Shown here: positions 2,687-28,420 of the stretch, piece by piece | Layout of the letters: the number at the start of each line of letters is the position of its first letter | Numbering within the stretch: position 1 is the first letter of the stretch | DNA from: Candidatus Atribacteria bacterium | GTDB lineage: Bacteria > Atribacterota > Phoenicimicrobiia > Phoenicimicrobiales > Stramentimicrobiaceae | Assembly (NCBI GenBank): GCA_029556475.1 | Contig: JAKQEP010000162.1 | Span: forward strand, 1-35,803 | Direction: 5' to 3' | DNA: 35,803 nt | The notes under the pieces: model-generated | Seen by the model: only the letters and a program-made list of their open reading frames with translations | Told to the model about the DNA's origin: nothing | Databases searched by the model: none | Made by a program: the position numbers and the translations under genes

Positions 2687-3781
2687 TTACTTTATAATAT
2701 CTAATAATTTATTGAAAATTAATATACCAGGTTTTCTACCAGTTCCTTTTTTCAAAACAGATATGATTTTTTCTTTTTCCAGTAAATTCAATATGCGCAT
2801 TGCACTAGGCTTTGCTATGCCTGATTCTTTAATAAAATCAGTTGAACTAAAGATAGGGTGAATAAATAAGGAATCAATGATTTTAACTATGTATTGTGAA
2901 TGGGTTATTTGCTGAATTCGTTCTTTTTTGTCCTGATATAAGTCAAGAATAGCTTTTGCCTTTAAAATGTTTTTCTTTGACTGATAATAAATTGCTTCTA
3001 AAAAAAATTTTATCCATTCTTCCCATCTGTTTTCATCAGTTATAGCTCTCAATCTGCTAACATACTCATCCCGGTTCAATTCCAGATATTCGCTAATATA
3101 GAAAGTAGGAGAACTTAATGCTCCTTTTTCGAATAAAAACAGGGGTATTAATATTCTGCCAACCCTGCCATTACCATCAATAAAGGGATGGATAATTTCA
3201 AACTGAGCATGTACTATGGCAAGTTGAACAAGTAAATCTTTTTCTTTAGAATGGATGTATTTTTCAAAATTGGAAAGAAACTCCATAAGTTTTAATGGCT
3301 CTGGTGGAACATATCCTGCCTCTTCTATTGAAGCTCCTGGCTTACCAATCCAATTTTGGACCGTTCTGAATTTTCCACGCCCTTTGTTTTTGCCCCGAAC
3401 GCTGTCCAGTAAAATCCCGTGAATTTCTTTTATCATATTCAAAGTCATTGGCTTTTCTTTAAGCCAATCTACTGCATGAAATGTTGATTTCCGATAATTT
3501 ATTATTTCCTGAATATCTTTCTCACGTTCTGTGTCTATTTCATCTTTGGCAGAAGCTTCAAATTCTAACACCTCTTCGAGGGTAGCCTGTGTACCTTCGA
3601 TCCTTGAGGATAATACAGCTTCATTGGTCATCAATGGAGAAAGCAACACATGGGGATTAATCATAGATTGTATTATCCCATCATAACGAGCAAGCTCGGA
3701 ATTTGATGGCCCTATTAATTCAACAAATTTCATCCAATCCAAATTTTTCAAAGGTAGTAAATCCGGAACATATGGCTTCAT
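2687..3781 (-). CDS. Fic family protein (AMPylase-type) with C-terminal winged helix
   Basis: This 364-residue Fic/DOC protein would transfer AMP from ATP to a target protein hydroxyl. It has a Fic N-terminal domain, the active-site loop HPFIDGNGRVGR starting at H198, and a C-terminal winged-helix segment (about residues 300-360) typical of Fic proteins with a regulatory module. The inhibitory helix motif (S/T)xxxE(G/N) is present as SSRIEGT, with S58, E62 and G63. Because it lies before the Fic core in the same chain, this is a class II, self-inhibited Fic enzyme. All catalytic residues are intact. GAGG precedes the ATG. There is no adjacent antitoxin, as expected for this class. The cellular target cannot be read from sequence. 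Confidence 0.93.
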   Translation of the reverse strand: MKPYVPDLLPLKNLDWMKFVELIGPSNSELARYDGIIQSMINPHVLLSPLMTNEAVLSSRIEGTQATLEEVLEFEASAKDEIDTEREKDIQEIINYRKSTFHAVDWLKEKPMTLNMIKEIHGILLDSVRGKNKGRGKFRTVQNWIGKPGASIEEAGYVPPEPLKLMEFLSNFEKYIHSKEKDLLVQLAIVHAQFEIIHPFIDGNGRVGRILIPLFLFEKGALSSPTFYISEYLELNRDEYVSRLRAITDENRWEEWIKFFLEAIYYQSKKNILKAKAILDLYQDKKERIQQITHSQYIVKIIDSLFIHPIFSSTDFIKESGIAKPSAMRILNLLEKEKIISVLKKGTGRKPGILIFNKLLDIIK

Positions 3782-13528: not shown

Positions 13529-15199
13529 TTAATGGTTAAATAAAGCTTTGGTTTTCTCCTTTATTCTCAAACAGGCATCTACTACTTGAGGGTCATAGAG
13601 AATGCCTTTATTCTTTTTCAACTCTTCTTCGGCTGCTTCAATTCCCAGGTTTTGCCGATAAGGACGATGAGAAGCCATTGCTTCAAATACGTCTGCCACA
13701 CAGATAATACGCGCTTCTAATAGAATCTCTTCCCCTTTTAAAGCACGAGGGTAGCCACTGCCATCAAATTTTTCATGATGTTGGTAGACAATTTCGGCTA
13801 TGGGTGTGGTAAAAGAGATGTCTTTTAAGATATCATAACCCAGCTGGGAATGATTTTTTACTAAACTATATTCAATATCGTTCAAGCGGCTGGGTTTGTT
13901 CAATATTTCAGAAGGTATATTGAATTTACCGATATCATGGACTAAAGAGGCAATCCTGATTGTTTCAACCATATCCTCTTTTAACCCCATCTCCCGGGCA
14001 ATAGAAGTAGCTATACGGGCAACATTTTCCTGATGGCCAACAGTATAGGGGTCCCTGGTTTCAACCAATTTGGTAACGGCATGGATAATATCATCCCTGC
14101 TCTTCAGCAACTGGTAATAGTTTAAATAATTATAAATACTAGCTGTGAAACCATAGATAAAACTTTCTATCTTTTTTATACTGGTCTGATCAAAGGTATT
14201 TCTGGTTTCACTGGCAATACCCATAGTGCCTAGAATTTTTCCCTCAATAACAATGGGAACTTTAATACAGGAATGAATCCATTCCAGGCCGGGAATTATT
14301 CTCCAGCGGGAATCCTGATAGGTATCAGGTATTACCACTAATTTTTGTTTTTCAATAACTTCTTTTTCCAGTGGAAAGTTGTTTATATCTGTATTGAGAT
14401 TCCGAACAATTTTTTGGACATACCTCCCCTTATATCCATCTATAGCTATGACCCGCAGGTGACTATTTTCCAATAAAGCTATATCAGAACCATCATTGGG
14501 CAATATTCTGGGCAAAAGTTTTAATACCTGTTTTAGTTTTAAAGAAAAACTTTTTTCAAAAAATAAACCAGCGGTTATTTTTTCTTTTACAGTAGACAGG
14601 TTTATCTGCTCATTTTTGGGAATAAATAGGTTTTCTACCTCCAGTTTTGCTCTTCTTTCCGCCGTCAGATCAATTCCAATAGAATTATAGAACTCAAATT
14701 CACCAAAACTATTGTAAACGGGTTGTAAATACCATTTTACCCATAGTTTTTTCCCTTCTTTAGTCAACACTATATTTTCATTATAAGAAGGGTTGTCTTT
14801 TTTAGATAAATTAAAAAATTTTCCCTTCAATAGCTCACGTTCCCCTGATGGAATAAAGAGCTGAAAATAATCTTTTTGCAAAACATCTTTTTCCTGATAT
14901 CCTAAGCTATTAAGCATAGTCCTATTCATATAACGTGTTGTTCCATCTGCATTGAGTGCCACAAAATATACCGGCAATTCATTAAGAAAATTATTTGATA
15001 GTTCATTTTCTATCTTAGATAATACATCTATTTTTTTTAGTGCCTTTCGTTGTTTATAGAGGATAATGGCAATAGTTATAATGGCAGCAATTAAGACCAG
15101 GAACAGATTAGAGATTAATTCAATCCATACTCTATTGGCTGAAGAAAAAATATTCTCAAATATAATTTTAGGGAAATTAAATAGCTTGTTAGTTATCAT
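13529..15199 (-). CDS. Membrane PAS-GAF-HD-GYP cyclic-di-GMP phosphodiesterase
   Basis: The 556-residue protein has one membrane helix (about residues 27-47, ELISNLFLVLIAAIITIAII), a PAS domain (~65-175), a GAF domain (~215-360) and an HD-GYP domain (~370-550). The catalytic signature is complete: H421-D422 in LVHDIGKFNIP, HHEKFDGSGYP, VADVFEAMASHRPYR and YDPQVVDAC. It should hydrolyse c-di-GMP to GMP or pGpG, under control of ligands at PAS or GAF. Its ATG overlaps the stop of a 32-codon membrane ORF (ATGA, 15196-15199), which in turn follows the sigma-like gene directly, so the three are translated as a coupled set. It is closely related in its core to the REC-HD-GYP protein at 6727 but keeps the His that one lacks. 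Confidence 0.94.
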   Translation of the reverse strand: MITNKLFNFPKIIFENIFSSANRVWIELISNLFLVLIAAIITIAIILYKQRKALKKIDVLSKIENELSNNFLNELPVYFVALNADGTTRYMNRTMLNSLGYQEKDVLQKDYFQLFIPSGERELLKGKFFNLSKKDNPSYNENIVLTKEGKKLWVKWYLQPVYNSFGEFEFYNSIGIDLTAERRAKLEVENLFIPKNEQINLSTVKEKITAGLFFEKSFSLKLKQVLKLLPRILPNDGSDIALLENSHLRVIAIDGYKGRYVQKIVRNLNTDINNFPLEKEVIEKQKLVVIPDTYQDSRWRIIPGLEWIHSCIKVPIVIEGKILGTMGIASETRNTFDQTSIKKIESFIYGFTASIYNYLNYYQLLKSRDDIIHAVTKLVETRDPYTVGHQENVARIATSIAREMGLKEDMVETIRIASLVHDIGKFNIPSEILNKPSRLNDIEYSLVKNHSQLGYDILKDISFTTPIAEIVYQHHEKFDGSGYPRALKGEEILLEARIICVADVFEAMASHRPYRQNLGIEAAEEELKKNKGILYDPQVVDACLRIKEKTKALFNH

Positions 15200-15304: not shown

Positions 15305-16003
15305 TTAATTTGCCTTTGCTTTTTCAGGAGGCATTCCCAACATCTGAGCTAATTTAGTCTGATTTAAATCCATCACAAAAAGATAGTAGATGATACCTTC
15401 TTTAATTTCTTTAATTCTTTTAAAAGCCCTTCTTAAGATGATTAAATCTTCTATGGGTAGCTTAAAGGATTGATAGCTCCGACTTTTAATTTTGGTCAGG
15501 TCAGGTTTTAATGAGGAAATATCATATTGCGATTCTCCATAAAGGGGAAAGCAGGTCTCTCTCAGGGAATCTCGAGCTTTCAGCAATTCCTGCAAACCAC
15601 TATCGGTGATATTAAAGTGAGAGGCAATTTCAGAAATCTGGGGGAAACGTTGATAATCCTCGCGATATTTAATTACAAAATCATTAACCTTTTCATTTAG
15701 CTCTATCAGCCAATCGGGATAGTCTATTTGGCGATTTCTGTTTAAGAGGTATTGATGAATCTCTTCGGTAATAAGAATCTGGGCATAGGTCTTAAATTCC
15801 ACATGGTGTATTCTATTATCATAGAGATGGATGGCATTCAAAAGACCCAGATAACCGACTTCTTCTAAATTTTCAGGTGATTCCGGAATATCCTTAAACT
15901 GCCTGGCAATTTTAGTCACTAAATATTGGTATTTGCTGACAAGTTCCTTTTCAGATAATGTTTGTTCTTTTTCATTACATATATTTTCTTTTTTGATAGC
16001 CAT
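15305..16003 (-). CDS. Sigma-70-like factor with truncated region 4
   Basis: The 232-residue protein has sigma region 2 (YQYLVTKIARQF, then LEEVGYLGLLNAIHLYD and FKTYAQILITEEIHQYLL, about residues 25-105) and region 3 (DWLIELNEKVNDFVIKYRED through EIASHFNITDSGLQELL, about 120-165). Region 4 starts (LRRAFKRIKEIKEGIIYYLFVMDLN, TKLAQMLGM) but ends at PPEKAKAN, where relatives carry the SQxxVSR recognition helix that reads the -35 box. Neighbouring frames do not restore it. The layout is closest to SigB/SigF/FliA-type factors. The start at 16003 is favoured over 16018 because GGAGG (16012-16016) is 8 bases upstream. It may use extended -10 promoters or act as a regulator rather than a full sigma factor. 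Confidence 0.8.
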   Translation of the reverse strand: MAIKKENICNEKEQTLSEKELVSKYQYLVTKIARQFKDIPESPENLEEVGYLGLLNAIHLYDNRIHHVEFKTYAQILITEEIHQYLLNRNRQIDYPDWLIELNEKVNDFVIKYREDYQRFPQISEIASHFNITDSGLQELLKARDSLRETCFPLYGESQYDISSLKPDLTKIKSRSYQSFKLPIEDLIILRRAFKRIKEIKEGIIYYLFVMDLNQTKLAQMLGMPPEKAKAN

Positions 16004-16060: not shown

Positions 16061-16089
16061 AGTATGCCATTAAATAGATACTGTGTCAA
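16061..16089 (-). promoter_or_regulatory. Candidate sigma-70 promoter of the sigma-like gene
   Basis: On the minus strand TTGACA (16084-16089) and CATACT (16061-16066) are 17 bp apart, about 60 bp before the start codon. The -35 box is perfect and the -10 matches 4 of 6. It lies between the riboswitch and the gene, so transcripts starting here would escape the riboswitch. The -35 box sits at the edge of a GTCGTT-type repeat (16090-16120). Confidence 0.55.
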
Positions 16090-16249
16090 AAGTCGTTGGT
16101 CGTTAGTATTTAGTATTTTTAAATTTTTTATTTTAACCTATTTTTCTTTTAAATCTTCAATGATTATTTACCACTCATATCCTCATACCGTTAGCACATC
16201 ACTCATCGCTGTTTGTTTGTTATTTTCTTATTCGGGCTACAGTGGATGT

Positions 16250-16281
16250 GATTGCTTCGTCACTTCGTTCCTCACAATGAC
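16250..16281. repeat. REP-like element (GTCATTGTGAG...GCAATC type)
   Basis: On the minus strand this reads GTCATTGTGAGGAACGAAG then TGACGAAGCAATC, a form of the GTCATTGCGAG...GCAATC element found in many bacterial genomes. The ends ATTG and CAAT pair. A fragment of another copy (GTCATTGCGAA) is at 16304-16314. These sit in the 16.0-16.45 kb gap together with the hairpin copy at 16330. Confidence 0.75.
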
Positions 16282-16329
16282 AGAGAGAGGAGCAATGGTT
16301 TTTGTCATTGCGAACCCACATCTCCTCCT

Positions 16330-16400
16330 GTCATTGCGAGACATGCTGAAAGCATGTCGTGGCAATCTCATACTCTGTTACCCACATCTTTATCTTTGTT
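16330..16400 (+). repeat. REP-like hairpin plus CCCACATCTTT tail, copy 1
   Basis: GTCATTGCGA is followed by GACATGCT-GAA-AGCATGTC (16340-16358), a perfect 8-bp stem with a 3-base loop, enclosed by ATTGC (16333-16337) and GCAAT (16362-16366). The tail reads CTCATACTCTGTTACCCACA and TCTTTAT. The same composite occurs at 28348-28420 with a compensating base pair change in the stem, so structure is being kept. A plus-strand frame across it is not a gene. Confidence 0.85.
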
Positions 16401-16454
16401 TGCTGTATTACCAAACAGAATAATTTTGCCCTGCGGTTGCCACAAAAACAAAAA

Positions 16455-16554
16455 TAAACCGGCAGTCCGGCTACCCTGGTGGATAAGACTTTAACCACTT
16501 TAGGCCCATAGCTTTGCGCCCTATCTTTTCAGATAGTTTGCCTTTATCGGTTTA
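16455..16554 (-). promoter_or_regulatory. Cyclic-di-GMP-I riboswitch (GEMM-I)
   Basis: Read on the minus strand, the region matches the GEMM-I aptamer throughout. P1 is TAAACCG (16548-16554) pairing with CGGTTTA (16455-16461). After AAAGGCAAA comes P2, CTATCT-GAAA-AGATAG, with a GNRA tetraloop, then the conserved GGGCGCAAAGC and GGGCCTAAAG blocks. P3 is GGTAG paired with CTGCC around a CCGGA loop. A T-rich run (TTTATTTTTGTTTTT) begins in the P1 strand, and an AACCG further on (16434-16438) could compete for the 3' side of P1, so a transcription switch is plausible. It lies after the diguanylate cyclase gene and before the sigma-like/HD-GYP genes, which it probably controls. A possible promoter (TTGTCT, AATAAT) lies between 16555 and 16640. 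Confidence 0.93.
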
Positions 16555-16651
16555 ATACTTTTTAGATTTTTTCCTCAATTTTCAATCTTCTATTTATAAT
16601 TATTCCCTAAATTAAGGATTTTAGACAAAATATTAAAAAATATTTTATCTT

Positions 16652-19336
16652 TCACTTGTTCATTCTTTTTCTCTTATCTTCATACATTTGCTGATCCGCA
16701 ATCTTAATAAGTTCATCTGATGATTTTGATTCTGAAGACAAGTATTCAGAAAATCCTATACTGAATTCTATCTGGTAGCCCTTTTTTATACTTTTATTTA
16801 AAGAAAACAATCCTTCCTCTAACCTCTTTTGGATAAGGGGAGCCCGCCGAAGGGAGCTGTCAGGAAAAGCAAGCAGGAATTCATCCCCACCCATACGACA
16901 GATAATATCCACCTCCCTTAAGGTAGATTTGAGAAGATTGCCAACCATCTTTATTACCAAATCCCCTTCCTGATGGCCGTACAGATCATTAATTAGTTTT
17001 AAATGATTAATATCTAAAAAGGCTATCAGAAGAGGAGATTTATTTCGTTTAGCTAAATTCATCTGCCTTTCCAGCAGCTCAAGACCGCATCCTCTGTTGA
17101 AACAACCGGTCAGATTATCAATACGTGCCATTTTTTGCAATTGTTCTTCCATTTTTTTTCTCTCGGTAATGTCAACATAACTGGTAATAATTCCCTTGAT
17201 TTCGCCATCAATAAGGACGGGAGAGCTGGATATAGATACCGGTATTAGAGTGCCGTCTTTCTTTTGACGAAATGTTTCAAATTGAAAATGATCCTGAGAA
17301 ACTGCTCTTTTATCAAGCTCTTCACCCTCTTTTCTTTTATCAGGAGGGACTATGCTCCCATAGTTTATATTTTTCCCTTTTATTTCTTCCAGTGTATAAC
17401 CAAAAAGTTCAGTAAAACGTTTATTGGCATTTAAAACAGTTCCTATACTATCAAGATAAAGTATAGCCTCCGAATGGCTCTGGAAGAGACTGGCAAATTC
17501 CTGCTGACTCTTTCGCAAAGTCTCTTCTGATTTTATTCTTTCCCTTATGTCTATAACGATACCTTCAACACCGGCAATTTCTCCGGATTCATGGTAATAA
17601 TAGCGGCTATTAGTGGAGACAGGTAAGATTTTCCCATCTTTATCTTTTAAAACTACCTTATAGGCTTCTATTTGCCCTCCGTTATTGTTCAGGGCTTCTA
17701 AAAATTTTATCCTGTCTTCGGACTTATAATAAAAATCCTGAGCTATATTCCTTCCAAGAATCTCATCCAGGGTTTGATATCCTAATAGCACAATCCCCGC
17801 TGGATTCATCATTACAATATTACCATCTTTGTCGGTCTGATAGTATGCTGCCGGTATATTCTCAAAGAGGTCTCGATATTTACTCTCACTCTGTTTCAAT
17901 TTATCCAAAAATTCCTTTTCCTTGCTTATATCCTGATAAAAAGCAACAATAGCTTTTCTTTTATCTTTTACTATGATGGATGATACTGTTATAACAACAG
18001 GCACTATTGTTCCGTCTTTCTTCTTTCGTATTGTTTCATATTGGATATGTCCATTGGCTAAAGACTTCTGAGTTAAACTATCACTCTCCAGAACTATTCT
18101 CTCTTCCGGGAAGATAAACCCTTCATTGATATTTTTCCCTTTCAATTCCTCTCTGCTGTATCCGAATAGTTCAGTAAACTTCTTATTAATATCCAGGATA
18201 ATGCCGTTTTCATCTTGATATAAGCCTGCCAAAGGGCTATTTTGAAATAAACTGATTGACTCCTCCTGACTTTCCAGTAATATTTTCTTTGCCTTTTCTA
18301 ATTCGGTAATCTCAGTAAATATGCAGACTATTCCCGCTAATTCTCCACTATCATCAATTACAGGTGAGCAGGAGCAAAGGGCTGAGATCTGGCTACTGCT
18401 TTTAGTCTGTAATTTCATCTCAATTTCTTTCTTGGACTTTTTTTGGGAAACGATATCGGTCAGCATTTTTTCCAGAATAGTTTTTTCAATGAATAACTCC
18501 ATAGTTTTTCCTAACAGTTCTTTATTCTCATAACCTGTTAAATTGATGAAAGCCTGGTTCACACTGGCAATATTGCAATTTTTATCCAAAAGAACTAAAG
18601 AATCAGCCATAGTAGAAATTATCTGTTCGGCAGCCATATGTGGCGTTACAGGTATAAATCTATATTTTACAATAGCATAAATTATTCCACCTATTAGTAT
18701 TAAATAAGCAACATTTGCAACAGGTGGAAATTTATCAACATTGTAGAGGGGTAATAAAATATCTATAAAACTGGTAATAGTCAAAGATATTAAAGAGGTG
18801 TAAAAAATAATCCGGGATTGTTTTCCTTTTAAGGTCATCTTCTTCTTTTTACTAAAATCGTAAATTAGGTATAATGCTATGAGAGAACAAGAGGGATAGT
18901 ATAAGAAAAAAGAATATGTCCATAGAGAGTCTGACCAGATTTTCTCCCACCCCCAGGGCTGTCTTATATAATCGTTGATTAAAAAACCAGTCCAATTCTT
19001 GTAAATAAAGAGTAAGGGCAGAGCAAAGAATACAAAATAAATAATATTATTCTTTAATACTTTTTCCTTTTCAGTGAAGATTATGGCAAACCATAAATAA
19101 AACATATGGCAACTAATCCAGCTAATGGATGCGATGTTATCTATTAATAGAGCGGTGGTTTTTGTAGTGTTTGGCTGAAAGAAAAAAATTGAGGTAAGAC
19201 TCCAAAAGGCAAAACAGCCAATAAAGGCAGTAAGAACCCTGCTTGATAAAGATTCTATACCCTTCCAGAGAAGAAAAAGAAACATAGTAAAATAAATTAA
19301 AAAAGACAAAAAATGAAGAAAAGATAATATGCTCAT
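16652..19336 (-). CDS. Membrane PAS-GGDEF diguanylate cyclase
   Basis: The 894-residue enzyme makes cyclic di-GMP from two GTP. The N-terminus (residues 1-225) has about seven hydrophobic helices resembling the 7TM region of some histidine kinases. Four PAS domains follow (~232-345, 352-475, 480-600, 606-730), of which the second and fourth are clearly similar (both have KFTELFGY, KGKNIN and KKDGT). The GGDEF domain starts near 735 with IDNLTGCFNR. The catalytic motif GGDEF is at 816-820, and the inhibitory I-site RxxD (R807-D810) lies exactly five residues before it, so product inhibition is expected. A c-di-GMP riboswitch follows 98 bp after its stop, suggesting that the level it sets is read there. 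Confidence 0.95.
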   Translation of the reverse strand: MSILSFLHFLSFLIYFTMFLFLLWKGIESLSSRVLTAFIGCFAFWSLTSIFFFQPNTTKTTALLIDNIASISWISCHMFYLWFAIIFTEKEKVLKNNIIYFVFFALPLLFIYKNWTGFLINDYIRQPWGWEKIWSDSLWTYSFFLYYPSCSLIALYLIYDFSKKKKMTLKGKQSRIIFYTSLISLTITSFIDILLPLYNVDKFPPVANVAYLILIGGIIYAIVKYRFIPVTPHMAAEQIISTMADSLVLLDKNCNIASVNQAFINLTGYENKELLGKTMELFIEKTILEKMLTDIVSQKKSKKEIEMKLQTKSSSQISALCSCSPVIDDSGELAGIVCIFTEITELEKAKKILLESQEESISLFQNSPLAGLYQDENGIILDINKKFTELFGYSREELKGKNINEGFIFPEERIVLESDSLTQKSLANGHIQYETIRKKKDGTIVPVVITVSSIIVKDKRKAIVAFYQDISKEKEFLDKLKQSESKYRDLFENIPAAYYQTDKDGNIVMMNPAGIVLLGYQTLDEILGRNIAQDFYYKSEDRIKFLEALNNNGGQIEAYKVVLKDKDGKILPVSTNSRYYYHESGEIAGVEGIVIDIRERIKSEETLRKSQQEFASLFQSHSEAILYLDSIGTVLNANKRFTELFGYTLEEIKGKNINYGSIVPPDKRKEGEELDKRAVSQDHFQFETFRQKKDGTLIPVSISSSPVLIDGEIKGIITSYVDITERKKMEEQLQKMARIDNLTGCFNRGCGLELLERQMNLAKRNKSPLLIAFLDINHLKLINDLYGHQEGDLVIKMVGNLLKSTLREVDIICRMGGDEFLLAFPDSSLRRAPLIQKRLEEGLFSLNKSIKKGYQIEFSIGFSEYLSSESKSSDELIKIADQQMYEDKRKRMNK

Positions 19337-28327: not shown

Positions 28328-28347
28328 TGAAACCTTTTCTTTGTCTT

Positions 28348-28420
28348 GTCATTGCGAGACATACTGAAAGTATGTCGTGGCAATCTCATACTCTATCACC
28401 CACATCTTTGTATTTTTATT
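28348..28420 (+). repeat. REP-like hairpin plus CCCACATCTTT tail, copy 2
   Basis: This copy has GACATACT-GAA-AGTATGTC (28358-28376) within ATTGC (28351-28355) and GCAAT (28380-28384), followed by CTCATACTCTATCACCCACA and TCTTTGT. It differs from the copy at 16330 by a paired change in the stem (G-C to A-T). The remainder of the gap to 28617 holds diverged CCCACATC/ACCATTAACTAAGAACC-type repeat words and no gene. Confidence 0.85.

Follow-up and report, generated by a model that had tools for sequence, protein, structure and literature searches.

Which gene does a cyclic-di-GMP riboswitch serve when it lies between a gene for a diguanylate cyclase and a gene for a sigma factor, and does its ligand turn that gene on or off? 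A typical riboswitch governs a single operon of enzyme, transporter or surface genes. The locus considered here lies in a stretch of 35,803 nucleotides (the window, meaning the whole of the DNA analysed) from a Candidatus Atribacteria MAG of 2.03 Mb that is 84% complete. Its gene order is as a sequence-only reading of the same DNA had described it, with a PAS4-GGDEF gene upstream of the aptamer, and a sigma factor gene and a PAS-GAF-HD-GYP gene downstream (Table 1). For the product of the latter, the top NCBIfam match is an HD-GYP response regulator, at a score under the model's cut-off. Beyond this gene, and also on the minus strand, follow genes for PAS-GAF, CheR, hybrid histidine kinase and response-regulator HD-GYP proteins; near the left end of the window (2687-3781, minus strand) there is a gene for a Fic-family protein adenylyltransferase.

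Table 1. Features at the riboswitch locus, in window coordinates and in the direction of transcription.
Feature	Position	Strand	Remarks
PAS4-GGDEF diguanylate cyclase gene	16652-19336	-	Upstream of aptamer; GGDEF E 7.3e-36
Promoter-like motif GTCTAAA-N12-GGGAATAAT	16599-16626	-	Exact pattern; class common to most GEMM-I sites of the genome
P1 5' strand UAAACCG	16548-16554	-	Pairs with 16455-16461; P1 covaries across the order
GEMM-I (c-di-GMP-I) riboswitch aptamer	16458-16552	-	RF01051, 72.2 bits, E 1.8e-12
Local hairpin AGCCGG-ACTG-CCGGTT	16457-16472	-	Terminator scan; abuts the same U-tract, excludes P1; rival terminator
P1 3' strand CGGUUUA	16455-16461	-	Pairs with 16548-16554
U-tract UUUAUUUUUGUUUUU	16444-16458	-	Overlaps P1 3' end; probable termination site
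Dispersed-repeat stretch	16225-16365	.	25 genome matches, all but the window itself partial; lengthens the leader
Sigma-70-like promoter TTGACA-17-CATACT	16061-16089	-	Consensus scan 10/12; TG before second hexamer; possible bypass
SigB/SigF/SigG-family sigma gene	15305-16003	-	Likely start ATG 16003, preceded by GGAGG; product truncated in the last helix of region 4.2
PAS-GAF-HD-GYP gene, likely c-di-GMP phosphodiesterase	13529-15199	-	Downstream of sigma gene; HD_5 E 3e-40

The aptamer is with certainty an ordinary member of a known family. The proposed GEMM-I identity is borne out by a significant minus-strand match to RF01051, which spans model positions 1-87 of 87, exceeds the gathering score of 35 and is the sole Rfam match in the whole window (cmscan). 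The structure and coordinates first read from the letters are likewise right: P1, a P2 with a GAAA tetraloop (CUAUCU-GAAA-AGAUAG), the conserved blocks GCGCAAAGC and GGCCUAAAG, P3, and the U-run that continues from P1. In Vc2 numbering, where we take G20 and C92 to be the c-di-GMP-contacting positions, the window aptamer retains both the G and the C; c-di-GMP is thus the expected ligand, rather than cGAMP, and cGAMP or an altered ligand is rejected on the retained G20. For several aptamers upstream of orthologous sigma genes the top match is RF03167 (c-di-GMP-I-GGC), and these retain the G20 and C92 positions as well. Nothing in the aptamer data suggests a new ligand. Eight GEMM-I aptamers are distributed over seven sites of the window genome, one site being a tandem.

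The gene that the aptamer serves can be judged from its relatives. Orthologues of the sigma factor occur in seven further genomes of the family (43-74% identity), and a GEMM-I aptamer lies upstream of the sigma gene, on the same strand, in seven genomes including that of the window; in the seventh further genome (G009), the contig stops 144 nt upstream of the sigma gene. The distance from the aptamer to the start codon is 35-118 nt in five genomes (35-47 nt in G004, G006 and G007), 245 nt in G008 and 454 nt in the window. Cyclase and HD-GYP genes flank the aptamer in several relatives; in G004, G006 and G008 the upstream gene is not a cyclase, and the aptamer, the promoter-like motif and the sigma gene are still together. 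With the aptamer kept upstream of the sigma gene in seven genomes, three of which lack the cyclase there, comparison strongly favours its belonging to the sigma gene and sensing c-di-GMP on behalf of the sigma factor, which was one of the two roles proposed from the sequence alone; the other, a feedback loop through RNA, may also operate. It is very improbable that the aptamer would instead serve the upstream cyclase gene, as a 3' UTR or feedback element: it does share the strand of the cyclase gene, some 100 nt past the stop codon, but the genomes without a cyclase there keep motif, aptamer and sigma gene together, and the motif sits between cyclase and aptamer.

This motif is a shared promoter element that the sequence-only reading missed. 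In all seven sigma orthologues with an aptamer, GTCTAAA-N12/13-GGGAATAAT sits 35-73 nt before the aptamer. Written as the pattern GTCTAAAN{9,15}GGGAATA, it has seven exact matches in the 2.03-Mb window genome, six of them before GEMM-I aptamers (the window's, at 16601-16626, included); about 0.3 matches per window genome are expected from the window's dinucleotides, the reversed control pattern has no match in the same 2.03 Mb, and one of 100 shuffles of the window contains a match. Across 24 genomes of the order there are 67 matches, against 7 for the reversed control, and 37 genomes outside the order hold 4. Fifty of the 67 lie at most 800 nt upstream of a same-strand GEMM-I aptamer and none lies near one on the opposite strand; the binomial probability of this pairing (p ~1e-136) is only indicative, because the genomes are related. 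A chance motif is excluded by the counts, the reversed pattern and the genomes outside the order.

The exact motif marks roughly every second GEMM-I site listed for the order (50/98), and the regulon is delimited by searches with sequence patterns only. About nine of the 17 remaining matches are at type IV pilin genes, several directly behind a SigB/F/G-type pair; the others precede a GGDEF gene, DUF805-like genes or remnants of GEMM-I. Such remnants follow the motif at two loci (L151, G016:C20:23056; L145, G011:C113:11900), before a pilin gene and another gene. Only the 3' part of the aptamer is left in L151, and that of L145 is degenerate; both look like riboswitch loss with the promoter retained. 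Two genomes have the motif, without GEMM-I, before the gene for a DUF805-like membrane protein (L144, G000:C59:17747; L147, G002:C15), a possible sigma target outside riboswitch control.

Bacillales SigB promoters have the consensus KTTTW-N12-17-GGGWAW (PMC9847131). The motif agrees with it exactly at −10, in four of five bases at −35 (GTCTA) and in spacing; the GT-TA core at −35 is alike, with C instead of T as the third base. The contexts differ, in that the motif is linked to c-di-GMP aptamers and pilins, and the Bacillales promoters to general stress (PMC9847131).

Across the order, P1 runs straight into the U-tract, an architecture that had also escaped the first description. At least 8 U occur in the 12 nt after the aptamer in 31 of 34 readable aptamers of the order (background 2.5%), and the covariation of P1 reaches 5.79 of 6 pairs, compared with 5.35 in shuffles (0 of 2000). 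No hairpin that could replace P1 as the terminator stem is conserved among the orthologues or the order's other aptamers; several local folds come out at 0 kcal/mol, and many aptamers of the order lack any local hairpin. In G004, G006 and G007 the start codon follows the aptamer after only 35-47 nt, which leaves too little room for a separate terminator and antiterminator. Given that P1 leads directly into the U-tract, the aptamer is probably its own terminator across the order, turned OFF by c-di-GMP. In tandem arrangements (L001, G000:C72:13740-13966; also L075 and L076) a separate U-tract directly follows the P1 of each aptamer, so that every one looks like an independent terminator. At one locus (L051, G021:C29:20570-20657) the 3' strand of P1 holds the Shine-Dalgarno sequence and start codon and there is no U-tract; this is likely a translational OFF switch.

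The sigma factor itself scores best against TIGR02980 (residues 23-229, E 2.7e-25). Its 89 bits are well under the curated cut-off of 234 bits, and the protein is therefore named SigB/F/G-type only; a paralogue in C154 reaches 189 bits. Pfam Sigma70_r2 is matched at 25.2 bits (threshold 24), and Pfam gives no Sigma70_r4 match for the window protein. According to alignment and reading frames, the protein ends inside the region 4.2 helix in the window, G004, G008 and G009, and the helix is kept in G001, G002, G007 and the paralogues; recognition of a −35 element by the window copy is doubtful. An AlphaFold model from a shallow alignment (mean pLDDT 56) was set aside. Relatives in named records all come from Candidatus Atribacteria MAGs, and the viral contigs searched contain none. 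The sigmas linked to the riboswitch group in a single clade (100/100), separate from a paralogous pair that the window genome and others contain; long branches meet at that split. The cluster around the pair encodes T2SSE with MshEN, T2SSF, HD-GYP, two DUF6982 proteins, a pilin-like protein and a prepilin peptidase, and in family f2 GEMM-I aptamers lie inside it, before a pilin-like gene. At L075 (G021:C29) and L082 (G000:C154), a tandem SigB/F/G-type pair is found with two DUF6982 genes in a T2SS/type IV pilus cluster; sigma pair and DUF6982 are present or absent together.

A single circuit can be drawn from four features seen in the sequence, namely the aptamer, its conserved association with the sigma gene, the motif and the passage of P1 into the U-tract: a GEMM-I riboswitch in the leader of the sigma gene, a SigB-like promoter class, termination in the OFF sense and a regulon read by the sigma factor. 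As a whole, we put this explanation slightly below an even chance. The transcript would start from the promoter class GTCTAAA-N12/13-GGGAATAAT, common to most other GEMM-I genes and to type IV pilin genes of the order. At high c-di-GMP, the ligand would lock P1, which together with the adjoining U-tract would act as an intrinsic terminator, and the transcript would end before the sigma gene; at low c-di-GMP, P1 would be too weak and transcription would read through. A SigB/F/G-type sigma, either that of the window or the paralogous pair, would read the motif, so that each gene of the regulon, and the sigma gene itself, would obey the rule ‘sigma present AND c-di-GMP low’. We infer both the direction in which the ligand acts and the connection of the sigma factor with the motif. 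It is a more tentative proposal, and on balance an unlikely one, that modules of a SigB-like promoter and P1-terminator GEMM-I aptamers, one of them before the gene of the sigma that reads the promoter, make up a switch for pili and surface proteins that reinforces itself, on the rule ‘sigma AND NOT c-di-GMP’. Against the whole explanation stand several peculiarities of the window (a competing hairpin, the 454-nt leader, the repeat, the sigma-70-like site and the truncated sigma), the motif in sigma-less genomes, the roughly half of GEMM-I sites without the exact motif, and the exception of G003, which has the sigma pair and neither motif nor GEMM-I.

The chances that SigB/F/G-type sigmas read the motif are about even. 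This reader is suggested because the promoter is SigB-like and because the motif precedes the sigma gene and the pilin genes beside the sigma pair; presence and absence alone prove no reader. Seven genomes of the order have no SigB/F/G-type sigma match, and six of these hold one to four motif matches. DUF6982 is missing from the same seven genomes (and from G007), which suggests that the sigma-pair cluster was lost or left unassembled there as a unit. The circuit could also run as proposed with SigH reading the motif and the riboswitch-controlled sigma having another regulon, a possibility that we think improbable without dismissing it. Every genome in which the motif occurs without a SigB/F/G match contains a true SigH, a type confined to this order. 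Against SigH, G006 (100% complete) and G019 have no close match to it and nevertheless carry three and five motif matches; moreover, the motif fits both SigB promoter boxes with one mismatch and marks the sigma-pair cluster. As a strictly required reader, neither type fits perfectly by presence and absence. The SigH-type sigma of L143 (1502-2134; G000:C142) lies beside cysS and scores above the cut-off of NF006148; strong scores for this type occur only in this Atribacteria order.

The sign of the switch is uncertain in the window. The CCG/CGG pairing of P1 makes CCGG self-complementary here, and hence a local hairpin (AGCCGG-ACTG-CCGGTT) abuts the U-tract; it differs in energy from the P1 fold by no more than about 1 kcal/mol, and this near-equality makes an ON switch possible in the window. 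Without ligand, the hairpin and U-tract would terminate transcription; c-di-GMP would pull CCGGTT into P1 and RNA polymerase would pass. The GEMM-I riboswitch of Geobacter metallireducens pilM works in such a manner; it resembles the present case in that it precedes a pilus gene and forms P1 only with ligand, and differs in sensing cGAMP, in being an ON switch and in having its terminator strand downstream (PMC9262584). However, the hairpin is not conserved in the leaders of the sigma orthologues or in the order's other aptamers, many of which have no local hairpin, and P1 itself would adjoin the same U-tract. We consider an ON switch unlikely.

The OFF circuit could also have decayed in the window. 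In that case the repeat insertion and a private sigma-70 promoter next to the gene would drive the sigma, which would itself have lost its −35-binding helix, and the aptamer would be a relic that ends a short leader RNA; this seems less likely still. The long leader (454 nt, compared with 35-118 nt in five relatives), the repeat, the TTGACA-17-CATACT site and the truncated region 4.2 all point this way. Aptamer, motif and U-tract are intact, however, and promoter-like sites are about as numerous in this region as expected from shuffled sequence. The sigma-70-like site lies between riboswitch and sigma gene, and together with the repeat-stretched leader it means that the sigma gene may be partly uncoupled. 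These insertions, which may uncouple the switch, were overlooked in the sequence-only reading, which had pointed to an AACCG at 16434-16438 as a possible competitor for P1. The AACCG is present there, but the competitor role is not supported: it is absent from the orthologues' leaders, has no U-tract behind it, and its forced pairing (-35.3, compared with -40.2 for the minimum-energy fold) costs about 5 kcal/mol. The dispersed repeat (TCATTGTGAGGAACGAAGTGACGAAGCAATC type) also occurs at 28344-28383 in the window.

Among known systems, the nearest in function are Cd1-flgB-sigD and RsiG-WhiG, and the nearest in RNA layout is the HMP-PP riboswitch. Cd1 of Clostridioides difficile (flgB operon, which carries sigD) is, like the switch proposed here, a GEMM-I transcriptional OFF switch that places an alternative sigma factor under c-di-GMP; its sigD lies inside a 23-kb flagellar operon and it has a separate terminator hairpin (PMC6200980, PMC9262584), whereas in Atribacteria a sigma gene of SigB/F/G type comes first and the U-tract adjoins P1 itself. 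In Rubrobacter, c-di-GMP acts on a sigma factor, as it would in Atribacteria, through RsiG-(c-di-GMP)-WhiG, and predicted WhiG promoters similarly precede type IV pilus genes and cyclase/phosphodiesterase genes; a protein anti-sigma and a FliA-type promoter serve there (PMC8325347), a riboswitch and a SigB-like promoter in Atribacteria. In the very compact HMP-PP (thiS) riboswitch, aptamer and intrinsic terminator share a stem; ligand and fold are different, and the aptamer lies inside a classic terminator stem (PMC6478431), whereas in Atribacteria the terminator stem would be formed by the helix that closes a three-way-junction aptamer. A looser parallel is the merRNA of Bdellovibrio, an RNA with a c-di-GMP aptamer that belongs to a programme under an alternative sigma (FliA attack-phase promoters); it has no gene downstream and no FliA promoter marked for it, and no promoter-aptamer pairing over a regulon is described (PMC3627812).

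Neither the conserved attachment of the aptamer to a sigma gene nor the joint occurrence of promoter and aptamer across a regulon was to be expected. Searches of the literature found no account of a SigB/F/G-type sigma gene with a GEMM-I aptamer immediately upstream, or of a promoter class common to GEMM-I aptamers, which, being limited to open-access sources, is weak evidence of novelty. With a riboswitch before the sigma gene and a common motif marking the riboswitch genes as one regulon, c-di-GMP could act at two layers; the arrangement suggests one signal gating a whole surface-structure programme via a sigma factor. In the compact GEMM-I layout found here, the aptamer seems to be its own terminator. 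An uncultured phylum thus gains a concrete, testable c-di-GMP circuit, one that parallels the sigma/anti-sigma type IV pilus switch of Rubrobacter by another molecular route.
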